Source: Prauserella isguenensis (GTDB lineage Bacteria > Actinomycetota > Actinomycetes > Mycobacteriales > Pseudonocardiaceae). From it: 64,000 bases of DNA. This document shows, one piece after another, positions 35,131-60,814 of this stretch. The first letter of the stretch is position 1. The number at the start of each line of letters is the position of its first letter. The translations under genes were made by a program, and so were the position numbers. The stretch spans positions 186,001 to 250,000 of the forward strand of contig NZ_JACHWU010000001.1 of the NCBI RefSeq assembly GCF_014191605.1, written 5' to 3'. The notes below the pieces were generated by a model. That model was not told the origin of the DNA. It made no database searches and was given only the letters and a program-made list of their open reading frames with translations.

Positions 35131-35214
35131 GTGTTGCGCTCTCCGGGGCCCGTGTTGCGCTCTCCGGTGCCCGTGTCGTGGTCTCCGGGGGCGGTGTTGC
35201 GGTCTCCGGGGCGC
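35131..35214 (+). repeat. 21-bp GTGTTGC repeat cluster A (4 units)
   Basis: Cores start at 35131, 35152, 35173 (degenerate) and 35194, exactly 21 bp apart. Each unit reads about GTGTTGCGCTCTCCGGGGCC. In sense orientation, 125 bp downstream of the GNAT stop and in frame with it. The 350-nt gap 35007-35356 also holds an 8-bp triplication GTGACGAA at 35250-35273. Confidence 0.9.
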
Positions 35215-35356
35215 TGCACGTGGTCCACCACAGCCGTGGAGCCGTGGCGGTGACGAAGTGACGAAGTGACGAAGTGCTGCGATCACGGCCGCGCGCCCCT
35301 ACGGTCAACGGGGGACCGTCCCCGCCGCAGGTGAACATGCTGGTGGAGGTGCCACC

Positions 35357-37156
35357 GTGACCACGCACTCGGTTACGCCCCCGACCGATGTGACGCCGAC
35401 TCGGATCTCCGGCAACGAGCCGCCGCCGCGTAGGCGCGGGCTGCGCATGCTCAGCCTCGCGCGGACGACGGACCACAAGGTCGTCGGCATGATGTACATG
35501 GCCACGTCGTTGGCGTTCTTCATGATCGGCGGCCTGATGGCGCTGCTCATGCGCGGCGAACTGGCGCGGCCGGGTCAGCAGTTCCTGTCGCCGGAACAGT
35601 ACAACCAGCTGTTCACGATGCACGGCACGATCATGCTCCTGCTGTACGCGACTCCGGTGGTGTTCGCGTTCGCCAACCTCGTGCTTCCGCTGCAGATCGG
35701 CTCCCCCGACGTGGCGTTCCCCCGGTTGAACGCGTTCTCGTACTGGCTGTTCCTGTTCGGCGGGCTGATGGTGTTGAGCTCGCTCGTCAACCCCGCGGGC
35801 GCCGCGGACTTCGGCTGGACTGCCTACGCCCCGTTGTCGCGCGCCCAGTTCTCCGTGGGCGTCGGCGGCGACCTGTGGATCATGGGACTGGTCGTGTCCG
35901 GTCTGGGCACGATCCTCGGCGCGGTCAACATGATCACGACGATCGTGTGCCTGCGCGCGCCCGGCATGACGATGTGGCGGATGTCCCTGTTCACCTGGAA
36001 CATCCTGTTCACGAGCGTCCTGGTGCTCGCGGCGTTCCCGATCCTGACCGCGGCGCTGCTCGGCTTGTTCGCCGACCGGGTGTTCGGAGCGCACGTGTTC
36101 GACCCCGAGAACGGCGGCGCGATCCTGTACCAGCACCTCTTCTGGTTCTTCGGCCATCCCGAGGTGTACATCGTGGCCCTGCCGTTCTTCGGCATCGTCA
36201 CCGAGATCATCCCCGTGTTCAGCAGGAAACCGCTGTTCGGCTACCGGCTGATGGTGCTGGCGACGATCGGCATCACGGCGTTGTCGTTCGCCGTGTGGGC
36301 GCACCACATGTTCGCCACCGGTGCGGTGCTGTTGCCGTTCTTCTCCTTCCTCACGTTCGCGATCGCCGTGCCGACGGGCATCAAGTTCTTCAACTGGATC
36401 GGCACGATGTGGAAGGGCCGCATCACGTTCGAATCGCCGATGCTGTGGTCGTTGGGCTTCATGGTGACGTTCCTGCTCGGCGGGCTCACCGGCGTGCTGC
36501 TCGCCGCACCTCCGGCCAACTTCCACGTGCACGACAGCTACTTCGTCGTCGCCCACTTCCACTACGTGCTGTTCGGGACGATCGTGTTCGCCACGTTCGC
36601 GGGGATCTACTTCTGGTTCCCGAAGTTCACCGGCCGGATGATGGACGAGAAGCTGGCCAAGCTGCACTTCTGGCTGACGTTCGTCGGCTTCCACACGACG
36701 TTCCTCGTGCAGCACTGGCTCGGCTCGGAGGGCATGCCGCGTCGCTATGTCGACTACCTGCCCAGCGACGGGTTCACCGCGCTCAACACCGTCTCGACCA
36801 TCGGCGCGTTCGTCCTCGGAGCGTCGATGTTGCCGTTCGTGTGGAACCTGATGCGCAGCTGGCGGTTCGGTGATCCCATCAAGGCCGACGACCCGTGGGG
36901 CCACGGCAACTCCCTCGAGTGGGCCACCACGTCCCCGCCGCCGCGGCACAACTTCCTCGAGCTGCCGCGCATCCGGTCCGAGCGGCCCGCGTTCGAGCTG
37001 CACTATCCGCACATGACCGAGCGGATGCACGCCGAGGGCCACATCACGTTCACCGGCAAGGCCAAACCGCACGGCGGCCCGCCGCAGCCGGCGTCGAAAC
37101 AGGCGACCGACGGACTGACGCCCGATTCGCAGGGACGGGATAAACCACCCGAGTGA
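35357..37156 (+). CDS. ctaD: Cytochrome c oxidase subunit I (aa3 type)
   Basis: 599 residues with a GTG start after GGAGGTGCCACC. The haem-copper core of the terminal oxidase, with about 12 membrane helices. Ligands are visible: His 89 in MHGTIM (haem a), the His-Tyr cross-link motif GHPEVY (about 265), the CuB pair HHMF (about 316) and HFHYVL (about 398). The extra C-terminal tail with charged residues is typical of actinobacteria. The other oxidase subunits are not adjacent, as is common for ctaD in this phylum. Confidence 0.97.
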
Positions 37157-37271
37157 GGGAGGCGGCGCGGGCGGTCACACGGTCACCCGGTGCCGGTGGC
37201 GCACGGCCGGCCGCGGACGGCGTCCCCTCGGCCACGGTCGGCCGTCGGAGGTGCGTGTCAGACTCGGGGGC

Positions 37272-37757
37272 GTGAGTGAACGGCTGCAACGCGACAGGGA
37301 CTCGGACGGCAAGGCACGCAACGCGCGTCCGCGCGACGGCCTCGGCAGGCCGTTGCCGTACGGCTCGCCGGGCGTGGAACGCGCCCCCGAGGGTGTGGAA
37401 CGCACGCCGGACGCAACGGTTGCCGAGGCGCAGCAGCTGCTCGACGACGGCAAGCCGTTCCACGCCCACGAGGTGTTCGAGGACGCGTGGAAGTCGGGGC
37501 CGGACGCCGAGCGCGGGCTGTGGCGCGGGTTGGCACAGCTGGCCGTCGGACTGACGCATGCGGCGCGCGGCAACTTCACCGGCGCCGCGTCGCTGCTCAC
37601 CCGCGGCGCCGAGTCCATCGAACCGTTCTCCGGAGAGGCTCCCCACGGCATCGACGTGGCCGGATTGTGCGACTGGGCCGCGACGCTCGCCTCCGGCATG
37701 CCCGCCCGCACCGAACCGCCCGACGCCTCGACGGTCGCCCCACGCCTGCGCCCCTGA
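37272..37757 (+). CDS. DUF309-family protein
   Basis: 161 residues from the GTG at 37272 (product VSERLQRDRDSD); a start 21 nt earlier is possible. The DUF309 motif FHAHEVFEDAWK (about residues 66-77) and the helical GLWRGLAQLAVGLTHAARGN segment are clear. The His/Glu pattern suggests a metal site. Function unknown. It is 115 bp after ctaD and followed at once by a repeat cluster. Confidence 0.8.
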   Translation: MSERLQRDRDSDGKARNARPRDGLGRPLPYGSPGVERAPEGVERTPDATVAEAQQLLDDGKPFHAHEVFEDAWKSGPDAERGLWRGLAQLAVGLTHAARGNFTGAASLLTRGAESIEPFSGEAPHGIDVAGLCDWAATLASGMPARTEPPDASTVAPRLRP

Positions 37758-37769
37758 CCGCCGGCCGCC

Positions 37770-37875
37770 GTGTTGCGGGTTCCCGGGCCCGTGTTGCGGA
37801 TTCCGGGTCCCGTGTTGCGGATCCCCGGGACCGTGTTGCGGATCCCCGGGTCGCGTGTTGCGGGTTCCGGGTCGC
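37770..37875 (+). repeat. 21-bp GTGTTGC repeat cluster B (5 units)
   Basis: Cores at 37770, 37791, 37812, 37833 and 37855 (periods 21, 21, 21, 22). Consensus unit GTGTTGCGGATCCCCGGGAC. It begins 13 bp after the DUF309 stop, in sense orientation, between two convergent genes. Confidence 0.93.
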
Positions 37876-37905
37876 AGGCAGTGCGGCCGACCCGGCGTGC
37901 ATCTG

Positions 37906-38610
37906 TCAGGCCACGAGGCGCTGACGCAGCGCGGTGATGTCCGCGTCGTCGACGCCGCCGGCGCGCAGCAGGACTTCGACGTCGAGGGCGGCGTGCACGT
38001 CGAGGAACGACTTCCGCGGCGTCGTGCCGTGCCGGGCGAGCAGGTCGAGGATCTTCGGCTCGTCGTCCGGCCTGCCTAGCCGTGTCCACAACGGACGGAG
38101 GCGTGCGCGGCTGAGTTCGTAGTCGTCGGCGATCGCGGCACCGGGCACGCCGGCGAGGCTCAGCAGGACCAGCACCAGCAGGCCGGTGCGATCACGTCCG
38201 CTCGCGCAGTGCACGAGGACCCCACCCGGCCGGGCGTTCGCGACGGCGCGCACGGCGGTGACGACCAGGTCGGGGCGCTTGTCGAGCTGGTCGCGGTAGT
38301 ACAGCGGCGTGGCGTGCAGTCCGGTTTCGGCGTAATAGGTCCAGAAATCGTCGCCGACGGGGTCGAGCGGCGCATGCACGACGTCGATCCCCTCACCCGC
38401 ATGAGCGCCGGTCCGTTCGTCGTCGTTGCGCAGGTCGACGATGGTCCGCACGCCGTGCTCCCGGACAGCTCGCCAACCGGCCTCGGTCCACAGCCGCGGC
38501 TCCTCCGACCGCACGACGACGCCCCAACGGACTGCACGGCCGTCGGCTGTCGGCAGGCCGCCGAGATCGCGTGCGTTGTAGCTGCCTTCCCACCCCAGAT
38601 CTCGTCCCAT
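37906..38610 (-). CDS. Protein-tyrosine phosphatase (Y_phosphatase3 / MptpB-like)
   Basis: 234 residues starting MGRDLGWEGSYNARDLGG, the usual NxRDLGG beginning of this family. The catalytic P-loop HCASGRDRTG (Cys nucleophile and Arg) lies at about residues 136-145. A DDERTG segment and C-terminal helices follow. Probably cytosolic or secreted without a classical signal; the mycobacterial relative PtpB is a secreted tyrosine/lipid phosphatase. The upstream frame is open but consists of repeat sequence, so the ATG at 38610 is preferred. Confidence 0.9.
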   Translation of the reverse strand: MGRDLGWEGSYNARDLGGLPTADGRAVRWGVVVRSEEPRLWTEAGWRAVREHGVRTIVDLRNDDERTGAHAGEGIDVVHAPLDPVGDDFWTYYAETGLHATPLYYRDQLDKRPDLVVTAVRAVANARPGGVLVHCASGRDRTGLLVLVLLSLAGVPGAAIADDYELSRARLRPLWTRLGRPDDEPKILDLLARHGTTPRKSFLDVHAALDVEVLLRAGGVDDADITALRQRLVA

Positions 38611-38650
38611 ACGCGATGGACGCGTCGGCCGGCGCACACGTTGCACGCCG

Positions 38651-38713
38651 GCCGACGCGTGGTCGCAACACGAACCCCGGAACCCGCAACACGCGCCCCC
38701 GAACCCGCAACAC
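38651..38713 (-). repeat. 21-bp GTGTTGC repeat cluster C (3 units)
   Basis: Cores (as GCAACAC on the plus strand) at 38665, 38686 and 38707, exactly 21 bp apart. Reads in sense with, and 38 bp downstream of, the formaldehyde dehydrogenase gene; also immediately upstream of the phosphatase start. Confidence 0.9.
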
Positions 38714-38750
38714 GGGGGTTCCTGCGGGACGCGACGTGACGGTCCGTCTC

Positions 38751-39968
38751 TCAGGCCGCGGGGGCCATGCCGTGCGGGTCGATGACGAACTTGCGGGCCA
38801 CTCCGCTGTCGAATTCCTGGTATCCCTGCGGCGCATCGTCGAGCGAGATCGTCGTGGCGTTCACGGCCTTGGCGATGTCGGCCCTGCCGCTGAGGATCAT
38901 GTTCATCAGTTGGCGGTTGTACTTCTTCACCGGGCACTGGCCGGTGGTCATCGAGTGCGATTTCGCCCAGCCCAGCCCGATGCGCACGCCGAGCTGGCCG
39001 ACCTTGGCGTTCTCGTCGGCCGCGCCCGGGTCGCCGGTCACGTACAGCCCCGGGATGCCGAGTGACGCACCCGCCCTCGCGACGCTCATGACGTCGTTGA
39101 GCACGGTCGCCGGTTGTTCGCCCGCGTCCTTGCCGTGGCCGCGGGCCTCGAAGCCGACGGCGTCGACGGCGGCGTCCACTTCGGGTTCACCGGTGATCTG
39201 CTCGATCATGTCGGCCAACTTCGCGTCGGACCGCAGGTCGACCGTCTCGCAGCCGAAGCTTCGTGCCTGTTCGAGTCGCTCCGGGATCATGTCGCCGACG
39301 ATCACCGCCGACGCGCCGAGCAACTGTGCGGCGTGCGCGGCCGCCAACCCGACGGGCCCCGCTCCCGCGATGTAGGCGGTCGAGCCGGTGGTGACGCCCG
39401 CGGTGTAGGCGCCGTGATATCCGGTCGGGAAAATATCGGACAACATGGTCAGGTCGAGAATCTTTTCGAGCGCCTGATCACGGTCCGGGAATTTGAGCAG
39501 GTTGAAATCCGCGAACGGCACCATGACGTATTCCGCCTGACCGCCGATCCACCCGCCCATGTCGACGTACCCGTAGGCGGCACCAGGGCGAGCCGGATTC
39601 ACGTTGAGGCAGATTCCGGTCTTTCCCTCGTTGCACATCCGGCAACGGCCGCAGGCGATGTTGAACGGGACGGAGCAGATGTCTCCCTCCCGGACGAACA
39701 GCACGTCGTCGCCGGCTTCCACGACTTCGCCGGTGATCTCGTGACCGAGCGTCTGCCCGACCGGAGCCGTGGTGCGGCCGCGCACCATGTGCTGGTCGCT
39801 GCCGCAGATGTTGGTGGTGACGATCCGCAGAATCGCCGCGTGCGGCGCCTTTTTCTTGATTCCGATCCCGTCGACGACGGGACCCGGCAGTTCCAGTTTC
39901 GGGTAGTCGACGGATTCCACCGCGACCTCACCCGGACTCTTGTACACGACGACGCGATTGTCCGGCAT
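38751..39968 (-). CDS. fdhA: Glutathione-independent formaldehyde dehydrogenase (zinc alcohol dehydrogenase family)
   Basis: 405 residues, close to the Pseudomonas enzyme length. Oxidises formaldehyde to formate with tightly bound NAD, without added thiol. Catalytic zinc ligands Cys in NICGSD and His/Glu in GHEITG are present. The structural zinc loop CGRCRMCNEGKTGIC and the nucleotide-binding AGAGPVGLAAA follow. AAAGGGG precedes the ATG. A second, mycothiol-dependent formaldehyde enzyme lies 13 kb away. Related family members act on other alcohols or aldehydes, so the substrate is probable rather than certain. Confidence 0.88.
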   Translation of the reverse strand: MPDNRVVVYKSPGEVAVESVDYPKLELPGPVVDGIGIKKKAPHAAILRIVTTNICGSDQHMVRGRTTAPVGQTLGHEITGEVVEAGDDVLFVREGDICSVPFNIACGRCRMCNEGKTGICLNVNPARPGAAYGYVDMGGWIGGQAEYVMVPFADFNLLKFPDRDQALEKILDLTMLSDIFPTGYHGAYTAGVTTGSTAYIAGAGPVGLAAAHAAQLLGASAVIVGDMIPERLEQARSFGCETVDLRSDAKLADMIEQITGEPEVDAAVDAVGFEARGHGKDAGEQPATVLNDVMSVARAGASLGIPGLYVTGDPGAADENAKVGQLGVRIGLGWAKSHSMTTGQCPVKKYNRQLMNMILSGRADIAKAVNATTISLDDAPQGYQEFDSGVARKFVIDPHGMAPAA

Positions 39969-40164
39969 TGCGAAAACCCCTTTGTCTACTCACCGGGAAG
40001 GTGCGCGTATGCGCATAAATCAACCTAGCCGCGCACTCCGGTGATCACCACTCGGCGACCGGCCGCCCCCGCGGTGCACGAGAACAGCCCACGCGAGGCG
40101 GCACAGTCGCTCGGTGGCGCGGCCGTGCGGGGTGGGGCCGGGCGGCAGGTGGGCCGCGCGCCGG

Positions 40165-41058
40165 TCACGAGAAGCGTTGCTCCAGTTCGCCGATCTCGGG
40201 CAGTCCGATGAGGTCGGTGAACTCGCCGAAGGACGGCAGCTCGCCGAGTGCGGACGTCGGCGTGCCCTCGGCCTTCACCGTGGCGAGGAGTGACCGCATG
40301 CCGACGGTGGCCGCGAGCAGCGTGCCGATCGGGAAGATCACCAGCGAGAAGCCGAGTTCGCCGATGCGTTCGAGCGACAACGGCGGTGTGCGCCCGCCTT
40401 CGGCCCAGTTGAACACCAGCGGTGCGACGCCGCGGAGCTCGCGCGCCACGGTCTCGATGCCCTCCTCGCTGGTGGGTGCCTCGACGAACAGTACGTCGGC
40501 ACCCGCGTCGGCGTAGGCACGGGCGCGGGCGATGGCGTCGTCCAGTCCATGCACGGCGGCGGCGTCGGTGCGGGCGATGAGCACGAAGTCGGGGTCGCGC
40601 CGCGCCTCGGCGGCCGCGCGGATCTTGCCCGCCATCTCGTCGGTGGGGATGACCGCCTTGCCGGACATGTGCCCGCACTTCTTCGGCATGACCTGGTCTT
40701 CGAGGTGGACCCCCGCGACGCCGGCCTGTTCGTAGGCGCGCACGGTGCGCACGACGTTGATGGCGTTGCCGTAGCCGGTGTCGGCGTCGGCGATCACCGG
40801 GACGTCGACGGCGGACACGATGCGCGTGGCATTGTCGACCATCTCGGCGCCGGAGAGCAGGCCGACGTCGGGCCTGCCGATCAGTGACGCGGTCGTGCCG
40901 AACCCCGTCATGTACACAATGTCGAATCCGGCCTGTTCGACGAGCCGGGCGGACAGCGCGTCGTAGGCACCCGGCGCCACGGCCGGTCCGCCCGTCGACA
41001 ACAGGTCGCGCAACCGCTTGCGAGGTGGTGTGTCCACGGTGCCGAGCAGTTCTCCCAC
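40165..41058 (-). CDS. Isocitrate lyase / PEP mutase superfamily protein
   Basis: 297 residues from a GTG with GGGAGG 7 nt upstream. TIM-barrel lyase of the methylisocitrate lyase / carboxyphosphonoenolpyruvate mutase group. Magnesium-binding DADTGYGN (about 91-98), EDQ, and the catalytic-loop sequence PKKCGHMSGK (about 126-135) are intact. The Cys in the loop points to carbon-carbon lyase activity (2-methylisocitrate or a similar 2-hydroxy diacid) rather than phosphonate chemistry. Divergent from an FCD-type regulator, which probably controls it. Confidence 0.85.
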   Translation of the reverse strand: MGELLGTVDTPPRKRLRDLLSTGGPAVAPGAYDALSARLVEQAGFDIVYMTGFGTTASLIGRPDVGLLSGAEMVDNATRIVSAVDVPVIADADTGYGNAINVVRTVRAYEQAGVAGVHLEDQVMPKKCGHMSGKAVIPTDEMAGKIRAAAEARRDPDFVLIARTDAAAVHGLDDAIARARAYADAGADVLFVEAPTSEEGIETVARELRGVAPLVFNWAEGGRTPPLSLERIGELGFSLVIFPIGTLLAATVGMRSLLATVKAEGTPTSALGELPSFGEFTDLIGLPEIGELEQRFS

Positions 41059-41132
41059 GGCTAGCCTCCCTATGACGGCCCACCGGCCGGACGTCGTCCA
41101 CGCCCGCCACTACCGGAACGCCTCCGACCGAG

Positions 41133-41146
41133 GATTGCACACAATC
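41133..41146. promoter_or_regulatory. Candidate GntR/FCD operator
   Basis: Inverted repeat GATTG-CACA-CAATC in the 134-bp divergent gap between the lyase gene and the FCD regulator gene. FCD regulators commonly bind short palindromes with a TTGT/ACAA flavour. Inferred only. Confidence 0.35.
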
Positions 41147-41192
41147 GACCGCCAACGGCCACGAACCAGTGATCACCACCCGAGGGGACCGC

Positions 41193-41870
41193 ATGACCGA
41201 ACCGTCGACGTCGACCACCCGCACGGTCGACGCGCTGCGCGAGCTGATCCTCCGAGGCGAGCTGCAACCCGGTGAACGCCTGGCCGAGGTCGACCTCGCA
41301 ACGCGTCTCGGCGTAAGCCGCACCCCGGTGCGCAGTGCACTGACGCAGCTCGCCAGCGAAGGGCTCGTCGACATCGCCCCGAACCGCGGCGCCCGCGTGG
41401 TGACCTGGACGGTGCAGGAGCTCGAGGACATCTTCGACCTGCGGACCACGTTGGAGCCGCGGGCGGCGGCACTCGCGGCCGCCAACGCGACGGCGGACGA
41501 CGCGGCGGAGCTGGCGGACCTGGCCGACCGCATGGTCGAGGTCGGCTCCCCCGGCCCCCGGCAGGATCTCGACGCGCTGGCGGAGCTCAACCGGCGGTTC
41601 CACGACCGGCTGTCGACGTTGGCGGACAATTCGGCGCTGGCCAGCGCCCTGTCCGGGGCCGTGCACGCGCCGATCGTGCTCCGCAACTTCCACGCCTACG
41701 ACGTCGCATCGCTGCGCCGCAGCCTCGCCCACCACGTGGAGATCGTCGCCGCGATCCGCGCACGTGATGCGGTGTGGGCGGAGGCAGTCATGACCGCGCA
41801 CATGCGAAACGCTCGAGCGGTCATGGTCGCCGCCGCGGGGGCCACCGGACCCGCCCCGGGAGGGCCGTGA
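41193..41870 (+). CDS. GntR-family regulator with FCD ligand-binding domain
   Basis: 225 residues from the ATG at 41193 (GAGGGGACC upstream). N-terminal winged helix (RLAEVDLATRLGVSRTPVRSAL) and a C-terminal all-helical FCD domain with metal/carboxylate-binding residues (Asp in FDLRTTLE, His in NRRFHDRL, His pair in LAHHVEIV, His near the end). Such proteins sense organic acids and usually control the divergent catabolic gene, here the lyase. Confidence 0.9.
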   Translation: MTEPSTSTTRTVDALRELILRGELQPGERLAEVDLATRLGVSRTPVRSALTQLASEGLVDIAPNRGARVVTWTVQELEDIFDLRTTLEPRAAALAAANATADDAAELADLADRMVEVGSPGPRQDLDALAELNRRFHDRLSTLADNSALASALSGAVHAPIVLRNFHAYDVASLRRSLAHHVEIVAAIRARDAVWAEAVMTAHMRNARAVMVAAAGATGPAPGGP

Positions 41871-41895
41871 CCACCGCATTGCGGGGTTTCACAGC

Positions 41896-43098
41896 TCAGA
41901 CCAGCTTCTTGCGCACCGCGCGCCACGTGAGCCCACCGGACGTGCCGAGGAGCACGGCGGTCACGAGGAACACCCCGCCCACACCGGCGACACCGGCGAT
42001 GGCGCCCGCACCGAGCGGGACGAGCACCTGGCCGAGGCGGTTACCGGTCAGGCGCAGCGACAGGGCGGACGCGCGGCTGCGTTCGGTCACCAGGCTCACG
42101 ACCCAGCTCATCGTCAACGGTTGGCCCACACCCCAGAGGAAACCGACGATCACGAGGAACCCGCCGATGACGACCGGGTGCGGAACGACGGGGATGAGGG
42201 CCATCGGCACGGCCGAGCACAGCGTCGCGGCGAGCAGCATCCACCGCCGGTGCACCTTCCGCAGCAGGGCGGGCAGAAAGGAGCGGGAGACGATGGCGGC
42301 GCCGGTGCGCATCATCAGCAGCACGGTGACGGTCAGTACGCCGAAGCCGTGCTGGTGGCCGAGCACGGGCAGGAACGCGGCGAGCACGTCCATCGACGTC
42401 AACACGACGAGGCTGCTGAACATGGCGGCACGCATGCCGGGTGTGCGCAGCATGGTCGGCACCGACTGAGCTTCGCCGTGCTGCCCGGCGCGCGCCGCCG
42501 CGGAACCGACGACCGGCATCAGCAGGGTCGACGGCACGGCCAGTACGGCGAGTCCCGCGAGCGCCAGCAGTCCCGGGGTGGTCGCGACACCGCCCGGCCC
42601 GCTGCCGGCCGAGGTGACGAGTCCGGCGACGGGCAGGCCGGCCGTCTGCCCGATGGACGTGGCGAGCGCCCAGCCCGCGAACCGGCGGTCGAGCTGGTCG
42701 GACGCCGACAGCAGCGGGATGAACCCCTGCCCGGCGACGGTCACGAGAATCTGCGCGAAACCGAGGAGCACGTTGCCGATCGCGAGTACGACGAGGTCAC
42801 CGCTGACGGCGATCACCAGGAGCGCGCCGACGGTCAGGAACACTCCCGCCCGCAGCATGCCCGCCGGATGACCGTTGTCGACCGCGCGCCCGACCGGTAC
42901 CGCCACGATCAGTGGCAGGAGCGAGAACAACGCCGTGATCACGCCGAGGGCCACCCCGTGCCCGCCCAGCTCGAGGACCCGGTACGAGACGAGCATGCGG
43001 GCCGCGTTGTAAGCGGCCTGGGTCAGCAGCGTGCCCGCCCACAGGTGCGGGTACCACCGCGTCGTACGGCCGGGCCTGCTCGACTCCGCGCCGCTCAC
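41896..43098 (-). CDS. Major facilitator superfamily transporter
   Basis: 400 residues, about 12 membrane segments, with loop motifs VGRAVDNGHP (motif A variant) and RAVRKKLV at the end. The GTG start overlaps the stop of a short decayed frame (GTGA) and has no good ribosome binding site of its own, so it may once have been coupled to the lost gene. The substrate cannot be predicted. Tail-to-tail with the FCD regulator (25 bp apart). Confidence 0.85.
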   Translation of the reverse strand: MSGAESSRPGRTTRWYPHLWAGTLLTQAAYNAARMLVSYRVLELGGHGVALGVITALFSLLPLIVAVPVGRAVDNGHPAGMLRAGVFLTVGALLVIAVSGDLVVLAIGNVLLGFAQILVTVAGQGFIPLLSASDQLDRRFAGWALATSIGQTAGLPVAGLVTSAGSGPGGVATTPGLLALAGLAVLAVPSTLLMPVVGSAAARAGQHGEAQSVPTMLRTPGMRAAMFSSLVVLTSMDVLAAFLPVLGHQHGFGVLTVTVLLMMRTGAAIVSRSFLPALLRKVHRRWMLLAATLCSAVPMALIPVVPHPVVIGGFLVIVGFLWGVGQPLTMSWVVSLVTERSRASALSLRLTGNRLGQVLVPLGAGAIAGVAGVGGVFLVTAVLLGTSGGLTWRAVRKKLV

Positions 43099-43190
43099 CC
43101 GGCCGACTCGGGACCAGCGACCCGCACCGCCGCGGTCCCGCGCATCACGGTCCGATAGGCGTCGCCCTGCCGAAGAGTGTCCGGTGTCAT
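43095..43190 (-). pseudogene. Remnant of a flavin-reductase-like gene start
   Basis: A 31-codon frame (MTPDTLRQGDAYRTVMRGTA...) ending on the start of the MFS gene. The stretch AYRTVMRGTAAV resembles the N-terminus of flavin reductase domain proteins, whose family length is 150 or more, so almost all of it is missing. It overlaps the stop of another frame by ATGA. Resemblance is weak because it is so short. Confidence 0.35.
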
Positions 43191-44144: not shown

Positions 44145-44161
44145 GCGTCGGCCCTTCGCGA

Positions 44162-44917: not shown

Positions 44918-45030
44918 GGTCGTGACTCCCTCGCGTCGATGTGTCCGATGTCGCCACCGACGCTAGGGGCGCCGCGCTCACCAGGGGAAACACACGATTC
45001 GAGTGGGGTCACAACCACCGCGGATACCTG

Positions 45031-53379: not shown

Positions 53380-53392
53380 CGCGGGCGAGCCG

Positions 53393-53875: not shown

Positions 53876-53881
53876 TGAGCG

Positions 53882-54448
53882 CTACCCGCCCTGCCCGAGT
53901 CGCACTCCTGCCGGCTCCGGTGCGGGTTGCGTCGCCGTCTGCTGCCAGCGGCCGACGCCGGCTCCCAGCGCGTACGACAGGTGACCGCCGAGCGCGCCGC
54001 CCGCGGCGAGCACCGCCAGTCCCGCGCACGCCCTGGCGCGGCTCGCCGACCGGTTCCGGCACGTCACGGCACGCAGGTAGAGGCCCGCGGCGACGGCGTT
54101 GGCTCCGGCGTGGAGGAGGGCCACCCGCCGCTGGGTGGGCTCCAGCCGGGAGAAGTCGGCCAGTCCGGTCACGACCGTGGGCGGGGTGGCGGCGAGTCCG
54201 ATGGCCATGAGCCGACGGGCGGCGACTGGTTGGTCGAAACCGATGTCGAGCACGGAGGAACAGGTCCACGCCCCGATCGGCACGGCCACCAGCAACGGGT
54301 GCACCGGGTGGCCGAGCCAGGCCCCGCGAAGGAACCGGTCGAGACCACCGCGGCCGAGCACGCGCCGCACCGAGCGTTGGACGGTGGCCGCCGGTCCGTC
54401 CACGGCACGCAGCGACTCGCTCGATTCCAGGATCCGACGTACGAACAT
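53882..54448 (-). CDS. DUF2231-family membrane protein
   Basis: 188 residues (MFVRRILESSESLRAVDGPA). About four membrane segments with the family hallmark GHPVHPLLVAVPIGAW near residues 46-61, whose His residues may bind haem or metal. Function unknown; members are often near Rieske-type or cytochrome genes. Confidence 0.82.
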   Translation of the reverse strand: MFVRRILESSESLRAVDGPAATVQRSVRRVLGRGGLDRFLRGAWLGHPVHPLLVAVPIGAWTCSSVLDIGFDQPVAARRLMAIGLAATPPTVVTGLADFSRLEPTQRRVALLHAGANAVAAGLYLRAVTCRNRSASRARACAGLAVLAAGGALGGHLSYALGAGVGRWQQTATQPAPEPAGVRLGQGG

Positions 54449-54477
54449 GACGGCCGGGTACCCGCCGGTCGACGTGC

Positions 54478-54882
54478 TCAGTCGTGCGCTACCAACGGCT
54501 TCGCCAGGTACAACGCCGTTTCCCCTGCCGCGTCGCCGTCGTAGAGCGTCCGATCGAGCCCGACGATGTCGAACCCCATCGCTCGATATGCGTGCACCGC
54601 GGGAGTGTTCGTGTTCTGCGTCTCCAGGCAGACGTGCCGGGCGCCGTTCCGCAGGACGCGGTTCGTCACGTGGTGGAGCAAGGCGCGGGCGGCCCCGCGG
54701 CCTCGGTGAGCACACGATCGACGTACAGGTGCCACAGCGCCTGGCGGCGATTCCAGCGCGAGAAACCGGTCGCGGCGAAGCCGATGACACGTCCGTCCTC
54801 ACACGCGACGAACCCCTCGGTCCACGCACGGTCGGTACTGGTCACGTCGGCGAGGAACTCGTGGTCCTTGTCTCGGCGGCGT
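54478..54882 (-). pseudogene. GNAT acetyltransferase, N-truncated and frameshifted
   Basis: Two frames together give the GNAT core: first WTEGFVACEDGRVIGFAATG...LWHLYVDR, then, after one missing base near 54710, HRGRGAARALLHHV...CLETQNTNTPAVHAYRAMGF to the stop. The acetyl-CoA loop RGRGAA lies just after the break. The N-terminal 20-30 residues are absent, and the sequence runs directly into the end of the formylglycine-generating-enzyme-like gene. Confidence 0.8.
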
Positions 54883-55678
54883 CGTTGAACGTGGACGGCG
54901 TGCAGCGCTCGAACGGTGTCGTCCAGGAACCACCCTTGAGCTCGTGGCGACCGGGCTTGGACTCGGTCGCGCACCACTCCCACGTGTTGCCGCACAGGTC
55001 GTAGACGCCGTACGGGCTGATTCCGGTCTGGTAGCAGTCCACGGCCGTGGTCTCGCCGACGCCGTTCTCCCGGACGTTGCACTTGGCCGGCGTGGTCTGG
55101 TCACCCCAGGGGTAGACGGTCCCCCGCGTGCCGCGCGCTGCCTTCTCCCACTGCTGACTCGTCGGCAGGGACTTGCCCGCCCACTCGGCGTAGGCCGCCG
55201 CGTCTCGCCAGGTCACGAACACCACCGGGTGGTCATCGAGGCCGGGCGGGAACTTGCCGTCTTCCCAGCGCTGCGGCGCCTCGCGGCCGGTCGCTTCGAG
55301 GAAGCGGGCGTACTGGGCGTTCGTCACCGGATAGACGTCGATGTAGTAAGCCGGAATCCACACGGGCTCGTTGCTCGGCCCGGACATGAAGACGCTGCCC
55401 TCGACCTTGACCATCGTGCTGGCGTCGTTCGGGTGGCGGACCTTCGACTCGCCGATCATGGGTGGCTGCTCGGCGGCAGCCTCGGCAGGCACGAGCGAGT
55501 CCTGCGTCAGGAACGAGAACCGTGCCTGCGCGTCGGGGTCTGCCCTGGTCAGACAGGTATCAAGAGCCGCCTGGTTCACCGGCCGCGGCGTAGCGTTCTC
55601 GCCGCCTGCCTCCCACTTCGAGATCACGCGCTCGCTGACGCCGGGGAGAACCATATCGGTCCGTAACCGGGCGATCAC
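54842..55678 (-). CDS. Formylglycine-generating-enzyme-like (SUMF1) protein with partial XRE-type N-terminus, C-truncated
   Basis: 278 residues from a GTG overlapping the aminotransferase stop (GTGA). Residues 1-60 match the end of a helix-turn-helix regulator (VSERVISKWEAGG...PRPVNQAALDT), but the first helices are missing. The rest is a SUMF1/FGE domain (PVTNAQYARFLEATG; PVVFVTWRDAAAYAEWAGKSLPT; GVYDLCGNTWEW). The domain stops at FERCTPSTFNDAAE, where family members continue for about 20 residues to a GFRC-type end; here the frame runs into the GNAT remnant. Probably not fully functional. Confidence 0.75.
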   Translation of the reverse strand: MIARLRTDMVLPGVSERVISKWEAGGENATPRPVNQAALDTCLTRADPDAQARFSFLTQDSLVPAEAAAEQPPMIGESKVRHPNDASTMVKVEGSVFMSGPSNEPVWIPAYYIDVYPVTNAQYARFLEATGREAPQRWEDGKFPPGLDDHPVVFVTWRDAAAYAEWAGKSLPTSQQWEKAARGTRGTVYPWGDQTTPAKCNVRENGVGETTAVDCYQTGISPYGVYDLCGNTWEWCATESKPGRHELKGGSWTTPFERCTPSTFNDAAETRTTSSSPT

Positions 55679-56454
55679 ACAGTTTCGGCAGGAATCCCCT
55701 CGTAGACGTCGCGGAGCTGCTGCAGCATCGTGTGCCCGGTCGGCCACTCCGTCGCGTCGATGGCGGCCACGGGCCGGATGCCGGTGGCCGCGTTCGTCGC
55801 GAAGGCCGCTTCCATCGACGGCAGGTCCGACAACGTCAGCGACTCGGTCGAGACGGGCCCCTCGAGTGCCTGGTTGATCAGGGTCATCGTCGTTCCCGGC
55901 AGCCACTCGGACCGCGGCCAGATGACTTGGCCGTCGCGGATGAACCCGACGTTCGAGGTCGCGATCTCCGAGATCGTGCCGTCGGGGTTCAGGAAGAGAA
56001 CGTCGTCGTAGCCCTCGCGCTGCGCCTGGCGCCGCTGGTGCATCGCGCCGAACAGGCCGATGTGCTTCACCGCGGGCAGTTCGCGCCGGTAGGACGCGGC
56101 CTGCAGGCGCCACGGCGCCGGCTCGGCCAACGACGCCTCACGCGTGGTCACGAGCACCTGCGGCTGGGCATCCTCGCCGACCGTGCCCAGGCCCATCTCC
56201 GGGTCGTAGACCGTGACGCGAACGGTCACCGGCCGGTCGAGGCCCTGCAGCGCGTGGCGGACGTACTCGCGCACTCGCTCGGTGTCGAGTTCGGCGCCGA
56301 AGAGCTTTCGGCAGTCCCGCTTCAGACGCTGCAAGTGCAGTGAGAGGCCGCGCACGCCGCCGTCGCTGACGAGCATCGACGTGAAGTGTCCGTAGTTGAT
56401 GAGCGCGAGGGCCTTGACCTGCTCAATCGTCGCGGCGACGCCGTTCAGTTCCAT
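55675..56454 (-). CDS. Class IV pyridoxal-phosphate aminotransferase-like protein
   Basis: 259 residues (MELNGVAATIEQVKALAL). Branched-chain aminotransferase / aminodeoxychorismate lyase fold, with the PLP Lys in LPAVKHIGLF (about residue 136) and the typical SEIATSNVGFI and LPGTTMTLI motifs. Substrate unknown. Coupled to the SUMF1-like gene. Confidence 0.85.
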   Translation of the reverse strand: MELNGVAATIEQVKALALINYGHFTSMLVSDGGVRGLSLHLQRLKRDCRKLFGAELDTERVREYVRHALQGLDRPVTVRVTVYDPEMGLGTVGEDAQPQVLVTTREASLAEPAPWRLQAASYRRELPAVKHIGLFGAMHQRRQAQREGYDDVLFLNPDGTISEIATSNVGFIRDGQVIWPRSEWLPGTTMTLINQALEGPVSTESLTLSDLPSMEAAFATNAATGIRPVAAIDATEWPTGHTMLQQLRDVYEGIPAETV

Positions 56455-56810
56455 GCCCACAGACTCCCACCGCGACCACCGGCCGATGGGGGCCCTGGGA
56501 TCCCCAGAAGACATCGACGATGATCGGAAAAAGCGAAGGCGGACGAATACCGCTCATTCATTGATTCCTACGGCGTTGATGTCACGACATGGAACGGATA
56601 CCCGATACTCGCCGACTAAAAGGGAGGTCCGGTTGGCGCGCTTCCGTGCACAGGCCCTTCACCGACCGACAAGCGCGCAGCTCGCTCAGCCGCGCCTGCA
56701 CCGTGACCTTTATCGACCGTCGCGTCAGGGGTTACCGCCGTCGTCGCAGCGACGTCCGGCGAGTGAACGCGAGCCTGAGAGCCCGCGCGGATAGAGGGCA
56801 CAGCACCGGT
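56455..56810. other. Intergenic region with atypical composition
   Basis: About 350 nt without a supported gene. It is notably less GC-rich at 56515-56640 (for example GGAAAAAGCGAAGG, TCATTCATTGATTCC), unlike the neighbouring DNA, fitting acquired sequence. Confidence 0.4.
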
Positions 56811-56839
56811 CTGGAAGGCCAGGTTGCCGCTGCTAGTAT
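56811..56839 (+). promoter_or_regulatory. Promoter for leaderless leader-peptide transcript
   Basis: -10 TAGTAT at 56834-56839 and a weak -35 CTGGAA at 56811-56816, spacing 17. The ATG of the leader peptide begins 7 nt after the -10, the distance expected for a leaderless message. Confidence 0.55.
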
Positions 56840-56846
56840 TTCCAGC

Positions 56847-56903
56847 ATGTCAGCCGCTTCGTGCTCGGCCGCTTTCGCGGCAGTGACCAGGACGTCCCGC
56901 TAG
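56847..56903 (+). CDS. 18-residue leader peptide upstream of MFS drug exporter
   Basis: ATG TCA GCC ... CGC TAG encodes MSAASCSAAFAAVTRTSR. Promoter spacing suggests a leaderless start. The last six codons form the left arm of a perfect stem and the TAG stop is in its loop, so a ribosome translating or stalled here would change the RNA structure ahead of the exporter gene. This is the layout of attenuation-controlled resistance genes in actinobacteria. Too short for database-style recognition; called on architecture. Confidence 0.65.
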   Translation: MSAASCSAAFAAVTRTSR

Positions 56904-56923
56904 CGGCGGGACGTCCTGGTCAC
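56883..56923 (+). promoter_or_regulatory. Attenuator stem-loop overlapping the leader peptide
   Basis: Arms 56883-56900 and 56906-56923 are exact 18-bp complements (GTGACCAGGACGTCCCGC) with loop TAGCG. Downstream, GCAATAC (56925-56931) and GTATTGC (56978-56984) can pair. A second element, TGCTCGAA/TTCGGAGCA (about 56987-57008), can occlude a GGAG near the exporter start. No U-run follows the first stem, so control may be translational or Rho-linked as much as by intrinsic termination. Confidence 0.65.
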
Positions 56924-57019
56924 AGCAATACCTCGCCTGGGAACGTCCAGTCGCTTCGTGATCCATCCGGAGCGGCCGTATTGCGCTGCTCGAAACTTTT
57001 CGGAGCAACGGAGCAATAG

Positions 57020-58438
57020 ATGCTGTCAGGCATTGCCTCTTCTACCCGCGGGCGCAGTCCCGCCCCTGTACGCGCATGGCTCGTGCTGTGCACGATGTCC
57101 ATGCTGCAGTTCTTCATCGCGGTCGACGTGACCGTGGTCAACATCGCACTGCCCTCGATCGGCGCAGACCTCGGAGTCCAGGGCCATTCATTGACCTGGG
57201 TTGTGGTCGGCTACACCATCACCGGCGGCGGACTGCTGATGCTCGGCGGGCGGCTCGGAGACCTGCTCGGCCGCCGCCGCACCCTCTTGGTCGGCACGAC
57301 TCTCTTCGGCGCGGCTTCCCTGCTGGCGGGTCTGGCCCAATCCTTTCCGATCCTGGTCGTCGCGCGCCTGCTCCAGGGAGCCGGCGAGGCCGTCGCGCTA
57401 CCGGCGGCGATGGCGACCATCGTGTTGCTCTTCCCTGAGGGCCCACGCCGGTCGCGCGCACTGAGCGTGTGGGCCGCCGTGGCCAGCTGCGGCCTGGTCC
57501 TTGGATTCGCCCTATCGGGGATCATCACCGCCCACCTGGGCTGGCGCTGGATCTTTCTGATCTCGGTACCGTTCATCCTGGTCGTGATCGTGGCCGCGCT
57601 CGTCCTGGTCCCGGCAGACCGGTCCGCGTCTCGTGAGCGGGCCCGAGTGGACCTTCCGGGCGCGCTCCTGCTGACGGTGTGCCCGTTGCTGTTCGTCTAC
57701 GCCGCGATCGAGGCGGGCGAGCCTGCGACCAATCCGTGGGTGAGCGTGGCGGCGCTGGTCGGCGCGGTGCTGGCCGCTGTCGGGTTCGTGCAGGTCGAGT
57801 CGAGGTCGCCGGACCCGCTGGTCCCGATGACGTTCTTCGCGGACCGCGCTCGACTGCGGGCGAACCTGACGACGATGCTGCTCAGTGGGGCGCTGTCGAC
57901 CTCGTTCCTGCTGTTCACCTTCTACCTGCAGGACAGGCTCGGTATGGGGCCCCTGGGAGCAGGCCTGACGATGCTGCCCCTGGCCGTGGCGCTGATCTCT
58001 GCATCGGTGCTCGTGCCCCGACTGCTGGGACGCTGGGGCGCACGCGCGTGCGTGCTGGTCGGGCACGCGGCTGCTGCCGGCGCGATGGCTGTGATCGCGC
58101 TCGTGGCCACTCTGGGCGGAGGGGTGGCATGGCTGCTCCCGGCGATGCTGCTGATCGCAGCGGGCATGGGTTTCGGAATCGTGGGGCTGCAGTACATCGC
58201 GGTCAGCGGGACCACTGACCAGGACGCCGGGATCGCCTCCGGCGTCCAGCGAGCAGCAGACCAGCTCGGCGGAGCAGCCGGCGTGGCCATCTACATCGGT
58301 CTCGGGTTCGCGCCGGCCCTGCACGCCGGAGACCCGTTCGTGATCGCTACGGTGCTCGCCGTCATCGGGCTGATCGCCGGTGCCGTGGTCATCTCGCGCT
58401 CGCCGTCCACCGCGGCGGGACAGCCGCAAGCCGGGTAG
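57020..58438 (+). CDS. DHA2-family MFS multidrug exporter
   Basis: 472 residues with about 14 membrane helices. Family motifs: D1 AVDVTVVNIALP (about 34-45), motif A GGRLGDLLGRRR (about 76-87), and motif C-like GFALSGIITAHLGWRWIF. The ATG (MLSGIASSTRG) follows two GGAG sequences. Proton-driven efflux of a drug is expected. The inducing drug is probably a ribosome-targeting antibiotic if the upstream attenuator works as inferred. Sits in an island next to an integrase remnant. Confidence 0.92.
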   Translation: MLSGIASSTRGRSPAPVRAWLVLCTMSMLQFFIAVDVTVVNIALPSIGADLGVQGHSLTWVVVGYTITGGGLLMLGGRLGDLLGRRRTLLVGTTLFGAASLLAGLAQSFPILVVARLLQGAGEAVALPAAMATIVLLFPEGPRRSRALSVWAAVASCGLVLGFALSGIITAHLGWRWIFLISVPFILVVIVAALVLVPADRSASRERARVDLPGALLLTVCPLLFVYAAIEAGEPATNPWVSVAALVGAVLAAVGFVQVESRSPDPLVPMTFFADRARLRANLTTMLLSGALSTSFLLFTFYLQDRLGMGPLGAGLTMLPLAVALISASVLVPRLLGRWGARACVLVGHAAAAGAMAVIALVATLGGGVAWLLPAMLLIAAGMGFGIVGLQYIAVSGTTDQDAGIASGVQRAADQLGGAAGVAIYIGLGFAPALHAGDPFVIATVLAVIGLIAGAVVISRSPSTAAGQPQAG

Positions 58439-58456
58439 CCGAGCAGGCTGCCGCGC

Positions 58457-58486
58457 CCACACGGCTGCGGCGCGGCAGCCGTGTGG
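58457..58486 (+). terminator. Terminator of the MFS exporter gene
   Basis: Perfect 12-bp arms CCACACGGCTGC/GCAGCCGTGTGG with a 6-nt loop, 18 nt after the stop. It abuts the integrase remnant. Confidence 0.7.
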
Positions 58487-58630
58487 CTGGCGGCCGGAGT
58501 GCCTCCGACGAAAGTGGCCGAGTGGGCCGGCCACAGCGTCGGCGTGCTGCTGCGCATCCACGCCAAGTGCATCGACGGCGGTGAGCAAGCCGACCGTGAG
58601 CGCGTCGAACGCGGACTACGCGGCTGGTAG
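58478..58630 (+). pseudogene. C-terminal remnant of a tyrosine recombinase (integrase)
   Basis: The frame reads AVWLAAGVPPTKVAEWAGHS then VGVLLRIHAKCIDGGEQ to TAG. This matches the end of actinomycete tyrosine integrases (usual WLNAGVP..QVAEWAGHSV.VLLRVYAKCIDG). The conserved GHS is kept, but the position of the catalytic Tyr (RVYAK) is His (RIHAK). About 300 N-terminal residues are absent. It lies just beyond the 3' end of tRNA-Tyr, the typical integration target. Confidence 0.85.
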
Positions 58631-58704
58631 CCGTGGGGACGCATTGGGGACAGCCAGCCGGGCCGGATCGGACCGGATCGAGCCGGAGACAGCCGGACAA
58701 CATG

Positions 58705-58748
58705 AGAACGCCCCGGTGACCTGTCGTTCCAGGTCACCGGGGCGTTCT
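58705..58748. terminator. Terminator after tRNA-Tyr
   Basis: Perfect 18-bp arms AGAACGCCCCGGTGACCT and its complement with an 8-nt loop, 9 nt past the 3' end of the tRNA on the minus strand. Can work in either direction. Confidence 0.85.
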
Positions 58749-58756
58749 TCCATGTG

Positions 58757-58838
58757 TGGCGGGTGAGGGATTCGAACCCCCGAAGGCAGTGCCGGCTGAT
58801 TTACAGTCAGCTCCCTTTGGCCGCTCGGGCAACCCGCC
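58757..58838 (-). tRNA. tRNA-Tyr (anticodon GTA)
   Basis: 82 nt with a class II long variable arm. Acceptor GGCGGGT/ACCCGCC, anticodon loop CTGTAAA, T-arm GGTTCGAATCC. CCA not encoded. Its 3' end borders the integrase-scarred island. Confidence 0.95.
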
Positions 58839-58915
58839 GGGTGCCGGCTCCGTGTCCGGCAAGATGACAGCGTACCGCCCGCGGCGGGCGCACCCGCAGG
58901 CGGGTACCCGGTGAC

Positions 58916-58921
58916 TAGGCT
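58916..58921 (+). promoter_or_regulatory. -10 box upstream of yajQ
   Basis: TAGGCT, about 84 nt before the yajQ start. No clear -35. Confidence 0.4.
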
Positions 58922-59004
58922 TACCTGTTGTGGCCGCGTCGGCGGCCGCGTTCCCGAGACACTCCGAACCAGACAGCGAGAACAGACAGCGAGGTGCTTC
59001 AGGC

Positions 59005-59496
59005 GTGGCGGATCCGTCGTTCGACGTGGTGAGCAAGGTCGACCGTCAAGAGGTGGACAACGCGGTGAACCAGGCGGCCAAGGAGCTGTCGACACGGTTC
59101 GACTTCCGGGGCACGGGCGCGTCGGTGGCGTGGTCGGGTGACAACGCCGTCGTGGTGGAGGCCGAGACCGAGGAGCGGGTGAAGGCCGCGGTCGACGTCT
59201 TCAAGGAGAAGCTTGTCAAGCGTGGCGTGTCGATGAAGGCGTTCGATGCGGGCGAGCCTGCGGTGTCGGGCAAGACCTACAAGGTGTCGGGTTCGATCGT
59301 CGAGGGCATCGACCAGGACAAGGCGAAGCAGATCTCGAAGTACATCCGGGACGAGGGTCCGAAGGGTGTGCAGGCACAGATCCAGGGCGATCAGCTGCGC
59401 GTGTCGGGCAAGAAGAAGGACCATCTGCAGGACGTGATCACACTGTTGAAGGAGAAGGACTTCGGCATCGCGCTGCAGTTCATGAACTACCGGTGA
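59005..59496 (+). CDS. yajQ: YajQ-family nucleotide-binding protein
   Basis: 163 residues from the GTG at 59005 (product [17 protein letters not shown]), with GAGGTG upstream. The family's N- and C-terminal signatures are intact ([18 protein letters not shown]). YajQ proteins bind nucleotides; some bind cyclic di-GMP and act as effectors. An EAL phosphodiesterase is encoded in the same window, but no direct link is shown. Confidence 0.96.
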
Positions 59497-59562
59497 CGTC
59501 GTCGCCGGTAGTGACGGAACTCGGTCGCCGTCGGAGACCGGGCTCTCCGTGCACGTGACACC

Positions 59563-59583
59563 GTGTTGCGGGCCACCGCGGAC
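59563..59583 (+). repeat. Single 21-bp GTGTTGC unit (locus E)
   Basis: GTGTTGCGGGCCACCGCGGAC, in sense orientation 67 bp downstream of yajQ. A solitary copy of the element that is tandem elsewhere. The rest of 59497-59775 has no supported gene. Confidence 0.6.
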
Positions 59584-59775
59584 CGCACCGACGGCGGCTG
59601 TCAGGTCTTCTTCGACACCGGGCCGTCCCGCTAGCCGGTACCCTGATCCCCCGGAAGGCTGAGCCGGAACGCCGTCACCGAATCGGCGGCGCGGTGACGG
59701 CGGGTCGGTGCCGGTGCGCGACGCGGCGAGGCGGTCGACGACCCGACCGGGCGGAATCGGCATGAAGGGCGGGCG

Positions 59776-60657
59776 ATGAAGGGCATCGTGCTGGCGGGCG
59801 GCAGCGGAACGCGGCTGCACCCGATCACGCAGGCCGTGTCGAAGCAGCTCCTGCCCGTCTACGACAAGCCGATGATCTATTACCCGATCTCGGTGCTGAT
59901 GCTCGCGGGCATCCGCGAGATCTTGATCATCTCCACGCCCTCGGACCTGCCGAACTTCCAGCGTCTCCTCGGCGACGGCAGCCAGTTCGGCATCGAACTC
60001 GCCTACGCAGAACAGGCCGCGCCGAACGGCCTGGCCGAGGCGTTCGTCATCGGCGCGGACTTCGTCGCGGGTGACGACGTGGCACTGATCCTCGGCGACA
60101 ACATCTTCTACGGCCAGGGCTTCTCGCGCACCCTGCAGGCCGAGGTCGCGGACCTCGACGGCTGCGTACTGTTCGGCTACCCGGTCAAGGATCCGCAGCG
60201 TTACGGCGTCGGCGAGATCGCCCCGGACGGCACGCTGCTGTCCATCGAGGAGAAGCCCGCGGTGCCGCGGTCGAACAAGGCGATCACGGGGCTGTACCTC
60301 TACGACAACCAGGTCGTCGACATCGCCCGTGGGCTGAAACCCTCGGCGCGCGGCGAACTCGAGATCACCGACGTCAACCTGACGTACCTGCGCGAAGGCC
60401 GTGCCCGACTGGTCGAGTTCTCCCGCGGGTTCGCCTGGCTGGACACCGGTACGCACGACTCGCTGCTCGAGGCGGGCCAGTTCGTGCAGGTGCTGGAACA
60501 CCGCACCGGAGTGCGCATCGCCTGCCTCGAAGAGGTCGCGCTGCGGATGGGCTACATCGACGCCGACGAGTGCCACCGGCTCGGCGCCAAGCTCGCCAAG
60601 AGCGGCTACGGCGACTACGTCATGGACATCGCGAAGGCGGCGGGCGCCACCGGCTGA
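59776..60657 (+). CDS. rmlA: Glucose-1-phosphate thymidylyltransferase
   Basis: 293 residues. Makes dTDP-glucose, the first step to dTDP-rhamnose. N-terminal nucleotide-binding signature [16 protein letters not shown], then [26 protein letters not shown] (catalytic Asp) and the EEKP motif. Full length, with AAGGGCGGG before the ATG. The other rml genes are not adjacent here. Confidence 0.97.
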
Positions 60658-60671
60658 GCCGGCCCCTCCCC

Positions 60672-60713
60672 CGTGTCCTGAGCGCAGGACACCGGGTCTG
60701 CACTCAGGACACG
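60672..60713. terminator. Bidirectional terminator between rmlA and htpX
   Basis: Arms CGTGTCCTGAGCGCAG (60672-60687) and CTGCACTCAGGACACG (60698-60713) pair over 15 of 16 positions. The left arm can instead pair with the loop (GTGTCCTG/CAGGACAC). Confidence 0.75.
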
Positions 60714-60723
60714 CGGCGATGGC

Positions 60724-60814
60724 GCTACACGGCTCCCGCGAAACGCAACACGGCCCCTGGGATCCGCAACACGGCCCCCGGAATCCGCAACACGCGCGCC
60801 GGAGGGTGCAACAC
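60724..60814 (-). repeat. 21-bp GTGTTGC repeat cluster D (5 units)
   Basis: Plus-strand GCAACAC cores at 60724 (one mismatch), 60745, 60766, 60787 and 60808, exactly 21 bp apart. Sense with htpX, beginning 17 bp after its stop. Confidence 0.92.

Follow-up and report, generated by a model that had tools for sequence, protein, structure and literature searches.

Oriented arrays of a 21-bp direct repeat behind stop codons and hairpins of Prauserella isguenensis, candidate polar elements at transcript ends

A stretch of 64,000 nucleotides from Prauserella isguenensis, namely positions 186001-250000 of contig C1 (the window) in a genome of 4.95 Mb (G000), contains arrays of a 21-bp element with the core GTGTTGC. 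Each array is a row of direct repeats, two to six or more, that lies mostly right behind a stop codon or a hairpin and mostly faces the incoming RNA polymerase. Judging from this arrangement of sequence, the arrays are tentatively regarded as polar elements at transcript ends, which would stop the polymerase or back up its stop; this is the explanation that we lean to, with less than even confidence. To our knowledge, the ending of transcripts in GC-rich actinomycetes is only partly understood, and an oriented, dispersed element that replaces or follows terminator hairpins, with a near-constant core and a sequence that varies between lineages, would make a testable candidate for a stop mechanism.

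The placement of the arrays (an array being at least two units) is the main evidence. Distant sense arrays were often found past strong hairpins, which prompted a test of the rule that an array starts 0-40 nt behind a landmark, meaning a stop codon or a hairpin with 12 or more Watson-Crick pairs. After removal of 6 duplicates and exclusion of 39 further arrays (divergent gap, intragenic position, locus edge, overlapping gene call or gap >700 bp), the 158 arrays from four sets of the genus were reduced to 97 in sense and 16 in antisense orientation, and the expectation under random placement was obtained by excising the array and reinserting it at every position. The rule was obeyed by 82 of the 97 sense arrays against 38.4 expected, and in P. 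isguenensis alone by 36 of 40 against 19.3, whereas antisense arrays were found at a landmark in 4/16 cases, with 3.7 expected. The start lies no more than 40 nt from the stop in 63 sense arrays; among the other 34, an intervening hairpin of at least 12 pairs is present in 21, and 20 of these begin 0-40 nt past it. In convergent gaps a hairpin is found downstream of 6/37 near-stop arrays against 59/126 array-free gaps, in a comparison that is uneven in that the array-free gaps were scanned whole and come only from P. isguenensis; a weaker hairpin criterion gave 2/17 against 171/446 in codirectional gaps (p 0.04). The rule also held in all 11 scored arrays of G259, a Prauserella species with a unit of its own (5.9 expected), where 4 of the 15 arrays were left unscored, including a sense array 423 nt past the called stop. 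Arrays from other genera kept it in 10/19 cases (8.2 expected), with 7/8 in g20. One array of P. aidingensis (G254), scored as a miss at 200 nt past the called gene, stands by eye behind a signal recognition particle (SRP) RNA and its terminator.

Strand and gene order tell a similar story. The detailed array set of P. isguenensis covers 1.65 Mb, in which a home-made gene caller found 1473 genes (85% coding), replacing a first caller that had overlooked some genes, a likely thiE (by eye) among them. The 60 arrays of this set are distributed over convergent gaps (34), codirectional gaps in sense (15) or antisense (6) orientation, divergent gaps (3, one of them sense and about 73 nt 3′ of a tRNA) and gene interiors (2), so that 49 lie sense behind a gene. 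The initial annotation held the element to be always downstream of and sense to a gene; this is true of all four window arrays, but of only 49 of the 60 arrays over the 1.65 Mb, the 6 antisense, 3 divergent and 2 intragenic ones departing from it, so that "always" is wrong. The scan of the 1.65 Mb and the relatives, which would have refuted the initial claim had it revealed no bias of position or strand, found both biases, with exceptions. Convergent gaps make up 163 of the 900 gaps >60 bp, yet hold 34 of the 58 intergenic arrays; divergent gaps make up 248 and hold 3, and 55 of the 58 arrays are found between convergent or codirectional genes. Comparable distributions were obtained for 62 arrays at 50 loci of five Prauserella species (30 convergent, 18 sense, 6 antisense, 5 divergent, 3 at a locus edge), for 400 kb of P. 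aidingensis (8, 10, 6 and 3 in the same order, and 2 inside genes), for 23 arrays in 20 stretches of other genera picked for holding a pair (9 convergent, 10 sense, 4 antisense, 0 divergent) and for 15 arrays in ten stretches of G259 picked in the same way (7, 5, 1 and 2). Sense exceeds antisense in codirectional gaps by 15 to 6 in P. isguenensis (p 0.08) and, once duplicates are removed, by 45 to 17 in the four sets of the genus (p 0.0005), and in convergent gaps of these sets the array is closer to its own stop in 42/56 cases (p 0.0002), figures in which orthologous arrays of different species are retained and the arrays are therefore not independent events.

Enriched convergent gaps and nearly array-free divergent ones are also what a topological insulator would leave. 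In that case the arrays would be binding sites of gyrase or a nucleoid protein and would take up supercoils between converging genes, a role proposed for bacterial interspersed mosaic elements (BIMEs), and polarity would be secondary. Such a function would suit the period of two helical turns as well, but alone it leaves the sense-only placement behind stop or hairpin unexplained, and we consider it improbable.

The unit itself is abundant and regular. The window has 25 copies of GTGTTGC where 8.6 would be expected, and none of 100 shuffles yielded as many; the whole genome contains 206 adjacent pairs of it at a spacing of about 21 bp (13-15 bases between cores), with 0 pairs for the reversed pattern. 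The 60 arrays contain 2-6 units each, for which a weight matrix gives the consensus CCGTGTTGCGGATTCCGGGGC; it is not its own reverse complement, comprises 9 G and 6 C, and varies at position 6 almost exclusively between C and T. Over the 1.65 Mb this matrix finds 223 sites above 14 bits, with 2 in the reversed sequence, where 11 sites score >12 bits. The interval between units is exactly 21 bp in 152 of 161 cases. Such a period (22 bp in other genera) may reflect a protein that binds one face of the DNA, and tandem duplication by itself would also hold a fixed period. Neighbouring units of an array are 79% alike and units of different arrays 73%, and near-identity (at least 20 of 21 positions) is found in 16/161 adjacent pairs against 1.2% between arrays, from which it follows that local duplication is operating. 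The initial view that the repeat is not recent simple slippage is, in this light, only partly right.

Continuing local duplication is one of the points in favour of the main rival, in which the repeat is selfish or neutral and its placement tracks the ends of transcripts. According to it, the repeat spreads where harm is low, 3′ ends being a safe harbour, and the sense bias would stem from the way in which units are inserted or copied, for instance by a mechanism that targets transcript ends or terminator hairpins. Comparison with P. aidingensis provides arguments on both sides. In the syntenic 181.7-415 kb, all 12 arrays of P. isguenensis have counterparts that face the same way, and over both contigs compared 16 of the 27 P. 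aidingensis arrays match 15 of P. isguenensis, with 10 unmatched and 1 unplaceable. Unit number shifts between species (e.g., from 2 to 5 or from 4 to 7), a single unit type predominates in each genome, and some sites that are free of arrays in P. isguenensis carry one in a relative, which amounts to gain or loss of whole arrays and is, like the predominance of one unit type, to be expected of a selfish repeat. The two intragenic arrays, at 252693-252777 and 301853-301937 of contig C1, past the right edge of the window, also change by whole units, with one and two extra units in their P. aidingensis counterparts; one is sense and the other antisense, and by eye both are in frame as seven-residue linker repeats. 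On the other hand, over the 15 aligned array pairs the core GTGTTGC differs at only 14/366 sites (3.8%) and intergenic flanks at 293/1217 (24%), a sixfold lower rate of change in the core than in intergenic flanks. The comparison is somewhat tilted towards intact cores, since it takes in only pairs in which both arrays were found and the alignment leans to registers with matching cores. The TTCCGG part differs at 52/307 sites, the rest of the unit at 110/411 and coding flanks at 92/712. The placement rule, moreover, is not kept by antisense arrays, which also counts against this rival. No plasmid or phage source was matched by BLAST with the low-complexity filter on, the REP-type transposase PF01797 is absent from P. 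isguenensis and 4/6 relatives (it is present in 2/7 species of the genus), and the ten array-free sites examined revealed no inserted element that has fixed ends or a target duplication. A selfish or neutral origin is thus given a real, if rather small, probability. If it is right, the arrays represent a non-palindromic class of 3′-end repeat with a placement that follows transcript ends, and either explanation predicts measurable effects at many sites per genome, as the 206 adjacent pairs indicate.

Sense bias and proximity to stop codons could also be due to an element of the 3′ untranslated region, acting in the transcript through its structure or through sites for RNA-binding proteins that set mRNA stability or 3′ ends. 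Nested hairpins are possible between neighbouring units, and such folds had suggested RNA structure as the main explanation, which was rejected on the pairing test and control folds. Between neighbouring units pairing stands at 0.822, no better than the 0.827 of shuffled pairs of units; within a unit it is barely above shuffles (39/300 reach it), and no covariation was detected across units. The mean fold z-scores of 49 arrays and of 80 other downstream regions are the same for practical purposes (-1.14 and -1.11), with -0.69 and -1.19 for other unit types. No Rfam 15 family scores above its gathering threshold over an array in the window and 18 loci; the matches off the arrays are tRNAs and one guanidine-III riboswitch (contig C1, 356138-356202), which lies near an array site at 355476. 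Moreover, 21 of the 97 sense arrays are located past a terminator-like hairpin, where they would mostly escape transcription. The repeated RNA element of 3′ regions that had been put forward at first has consequently lost ground and is now judged quite improbable; pairing, folds, Rfam and the arrays behind hairpins favour action on the DNA or on the elongating polymerase.

Other candidates were tried and rejected. A coding repeat (21 nt being seven codons) is at odds with the lack of a fixed frame from the stop and with the 22-bp period of other genera, the two intragenic arrays being exceptions. Sites oriented by replication were discarded because sites of the two strands, 45 on each and 30 single units among them, are intermixed over the 1.65 Mb, orientation being therefore independent of the replichore. 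Rho utilisation sites are C-rich, the opposite of a consensus with more G than C, and a G-quadruplex is contradicted by the single G run per 21 nt, in which three of four positions are near 80% G.

If the arrays do end transcription, the following mechanism would be conceivable. An array would halt the polymerase, as the main stop at ends that lack a hairpin and as a back-up past hairpins, and would thereby shield the adjacent gene, which is often convergent. The most probable agent would be a putative DNA-binding protein that recognises the repeated core in the double helix at a spacing of two turns and forms a one-sided roadblock. As a second choice, the repeat sequence could pause the polymerase directly. 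The consensus for intrinsic pauses is G-11/-10 and T-3 G-2 Y-1 G+1; the main unit, with its TG(C/T)G, conforms to it, unlike GTGTCAGCA of G259, and pausing is retained as a sub-hypothesis. Unit and putative factor would change together, giving rise to lineage-specific cores, and local duplication would expand and shrink the arrays in the manner of a minisatellite.

Several observations weigh against a stop function at transcript ends. In codirectional gaps about one array in four is antisense, and two further arrays are intragenic. Hairpins are not significantly rarer downstream of near-stop arrays in codirectional gaps (2/26 against 83/450 array-free), nor in convergent gaps when the weaker criterion is used (13/26 against 73/125). 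The landmark genes come from home-made calls, each sense array being scored against the nearest called stop, and in other genera the arrays built of 22-bp units follow the landmark rule in 3/11 cases only. Finally, the 10 of 27 P. aidingensis arrays without a counterpart in P. isguenensis imply that no single array is indispensable.

Five of the other six Prauserella species contain 93 to 481 GTGTTGC pairs, and G259 contains 0. Outside the genus, genomes of the Pseudonocardiaceae have at most 7 pairs each, with at least one in 186 of 390 family genomes. Among the matches listed, many of the latter have a sequence of the type GTGTTGCCGCCGGCGTAGTTGGTGTTGC, which constitutes the background of the pattern count; this sequence and its close variants occur once each across several genera and look like a conserved coding motif. 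The triple repeat was found, among the matches listed, in named Prauserella relatives, plus single cases in unrelated organisms. Another unit, GTGTYSTGCRYTC, forms pairs in 18/390 family genomes and 6/46 genera, with 0 in the reversed control; among the matches listed, g1, g20 and g28 mostly have a period of 21 bp, and g8, g11 and g15 one of 22 bp. Among 394 genomes of the class, besides P. isguenensis, a single genome had it, with a single match. A third unit, commonly CGTGTCAGCACCCCACGTCGC, forms 163 pairs in G259 and none in the other six species of the genus. There is, furthermore, a second unit in P. isguenensis, GTGTYCTGC followed by RYTCGG, with 46 intergenic copies and 50 inside called genes over the 1.65 Mb; 35 of the 46 are sense behind a gene according to the first gene caller, and several are in phase with GTGTTGC units. 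The lineage cores are thus GTGTTGC, GTGTYCTGC, GTGTCGTGC and, in G259, GTGTCAGCA, and all unit types have in common CGTGT, one to three bases and GC, from which it follows that the element belongs to part of the Pseudonocardiaceae and that its sequence is lineage-specific. A wider proposal, suggested by these patterns of sequence and in our opinion unlikely, is that the family may possess a hairpin-independent, sequence-specific polar termination, in which the arrays would be read by a fast-evolving lineage-specific factor and would replace or back intrinsic terminators, including those of RNA genes.

Among known systems, the mycobacterial interspersed repetitive units (MIRU) are also tandem, variable in copy number, intergenic and gene-oriented, with units of about 50-100 bp within operons. 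The Prauserella unit differs in its 21-22 bp and its location at transcript ends, with more than half of the arrays between convergent genes. Arrays of Sal boxes in rDNA are oriented roadblock sites behind a transcription unit. Likewise, in the available text of PMC10310618, Rap1p-type roadblocks are oriented protein sites past a transcription unit that impose a one-sided stop on the polymerase beside other routes of termination. The Prauserella arrays, oriented at transcription-unit ends with the exceptions noted, have their closest working analogy here, but they are bacterial, occur at many genes and would act through a protein that is putative. Intrinsic terminators and clusters of hairpins lie just past stop codons, as described in the part of PMC8355165 at hand. 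An array, in contrast, forms no conserved G+C-rich hairpin, and sits where a hairpin is missing or right behind one. Repetitive extragenic palindromes (REPs) and BIMEs, as far as covered by the available portion of PMC3733652, are dispersed in many copies, mostly extragenic in convergent or unidirectional gene gaps, often <20 bp from the stop and sometimes intragenic; the REP palindrome, 20-40 bp long, bears GTAG or CGTC at one end and is linked to REP-associated tyrosine transposases (RAYT). The arrays share with them the position behind genes in convergent or codirectional gaps (55/58), whereas their units are direct, non-palindromic and gene-oriented and the P. isguenensis genome is devoid of a RAYT (Y1, PF01797) transposase. 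In Beggiatoaceae, TAACTGA repeats, whose unit of 7 bp is present two to six times, are mostly located just upstream of starts (PMC4679880, in the text available). These, too, are short direct repeats in a similar copy range at many intergenic sites of one genome, but the Prauserella unit is of 21 bp, lies 3′ of stops and has only 3 of 58 intergenic arrays in divergent gaps. In a full-text literature search, whose coverage excluded most subscription journals, the titles and abstract openings listed contained no description of the 21-bp element. Whether they are stop signals or selfish repeats, the arrays could supply compact gene-insulating parts for actinomycetes.

Within the window, 16 of the 25 GTGTTGC copies fall in the five places named by the initial annotation, and two degenerate units, at 35173 (GTGTCGTGG) and at 60724 (GTGTAGC, minus strand), complete its count of about 18 copies. 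Four of these places are arrays, each in the same orientation as the gene whose stop lies before it, and their spacing is, as had been stated, 21 bp with a single 22-bp interval. The first array (35129..35212, plus strand, four units) lies 122 nt 3′ of the stop, at 35006, of a GNAT acetyltransferase gene (33966..35006, plus strand; this and the other genes by Pfam), with no strong hairpin found in between, and has two units in P. aidingensis. A single unit of the second type (GTGTCCTGCACTCG...) at 35108..35128 on the plus strand, 21 bp before this array, is in phase with it; the unit type had escaped the initial annotation. The second array (37768..37873, plus strand, five units, including the 22-bp interval) starts 10 nt past the stop, at 37757, of a DUF309 protein gene (37272..37757, plus strand), a site that carries a sense array in 5, a reversed array in 1 and no array in 1 of the 7 Prauserella species, P. 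isguenensis included. On the minus strand, the third (38653..38715, three units, the third being degenerate outside the core) is 35 nt past the stop, at 38751, of a zinc-binding dehydrogenase gene initially named fdhA (38751..39968, minus strand). The fourth (60733..60816, minus strand, four units) follows by 14 nt the stop, at 60831, of an M48 peptidase gene, HtpX-like (60831..61769, minus strand); the htpX site has sense arrays in 4/6 relatives, hence 5/7 species with P. isguenensis. Past this array, between htpX and rfbA, inverted GTGTCCTG units, again of the second type GTGTYCTGC, form a hairpin at 60672..60713. The fifth place, 3′ of yajQ, contains a lone weak unit of 12.8 bits (59561..59581, plus strand), and GTGTTGC is absent from the 240-260 nt 3′ of yajQ in all six relatives; it is probably a chance match outside the repeat system. 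Pfam also recognised a tyrosine phosphatase, DUF520 (YajQ) and a nucleotidyl transferase (RfbA-like) among the neighbours.

Some minor observations were made along the way. Behind the stops of contig C1 genes, on both strands, GCCCCCAAGGTGCC and its complement are enriched, in a form that resembles a common intrinsic terminator stem. Multi-copy DUF222 genes (HNH, 13E12-like) adjoin arrays in four loci (L130, L163, L173 and L209), and at L138 an array occupies the site where P. isguenensis has a DUF222 gene; on contig C1 such genes are found at 450789-452181, 532165-533584 and 1580557-1581904. Two tandem repeats around the GNAT array are unrelated to the 21-bp unit, one of 15 bp immediately 3′ of the GNAT stop (window 34995-35043) and one of 8 bp (GTGACGAA) past the array (35250-35276). 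A 39-bp tandem repeat of 3.3 copies occupies 62931-63059 of the window, past an open reading frame that resembles a metal-binding lipoprotein of zinc transporters.

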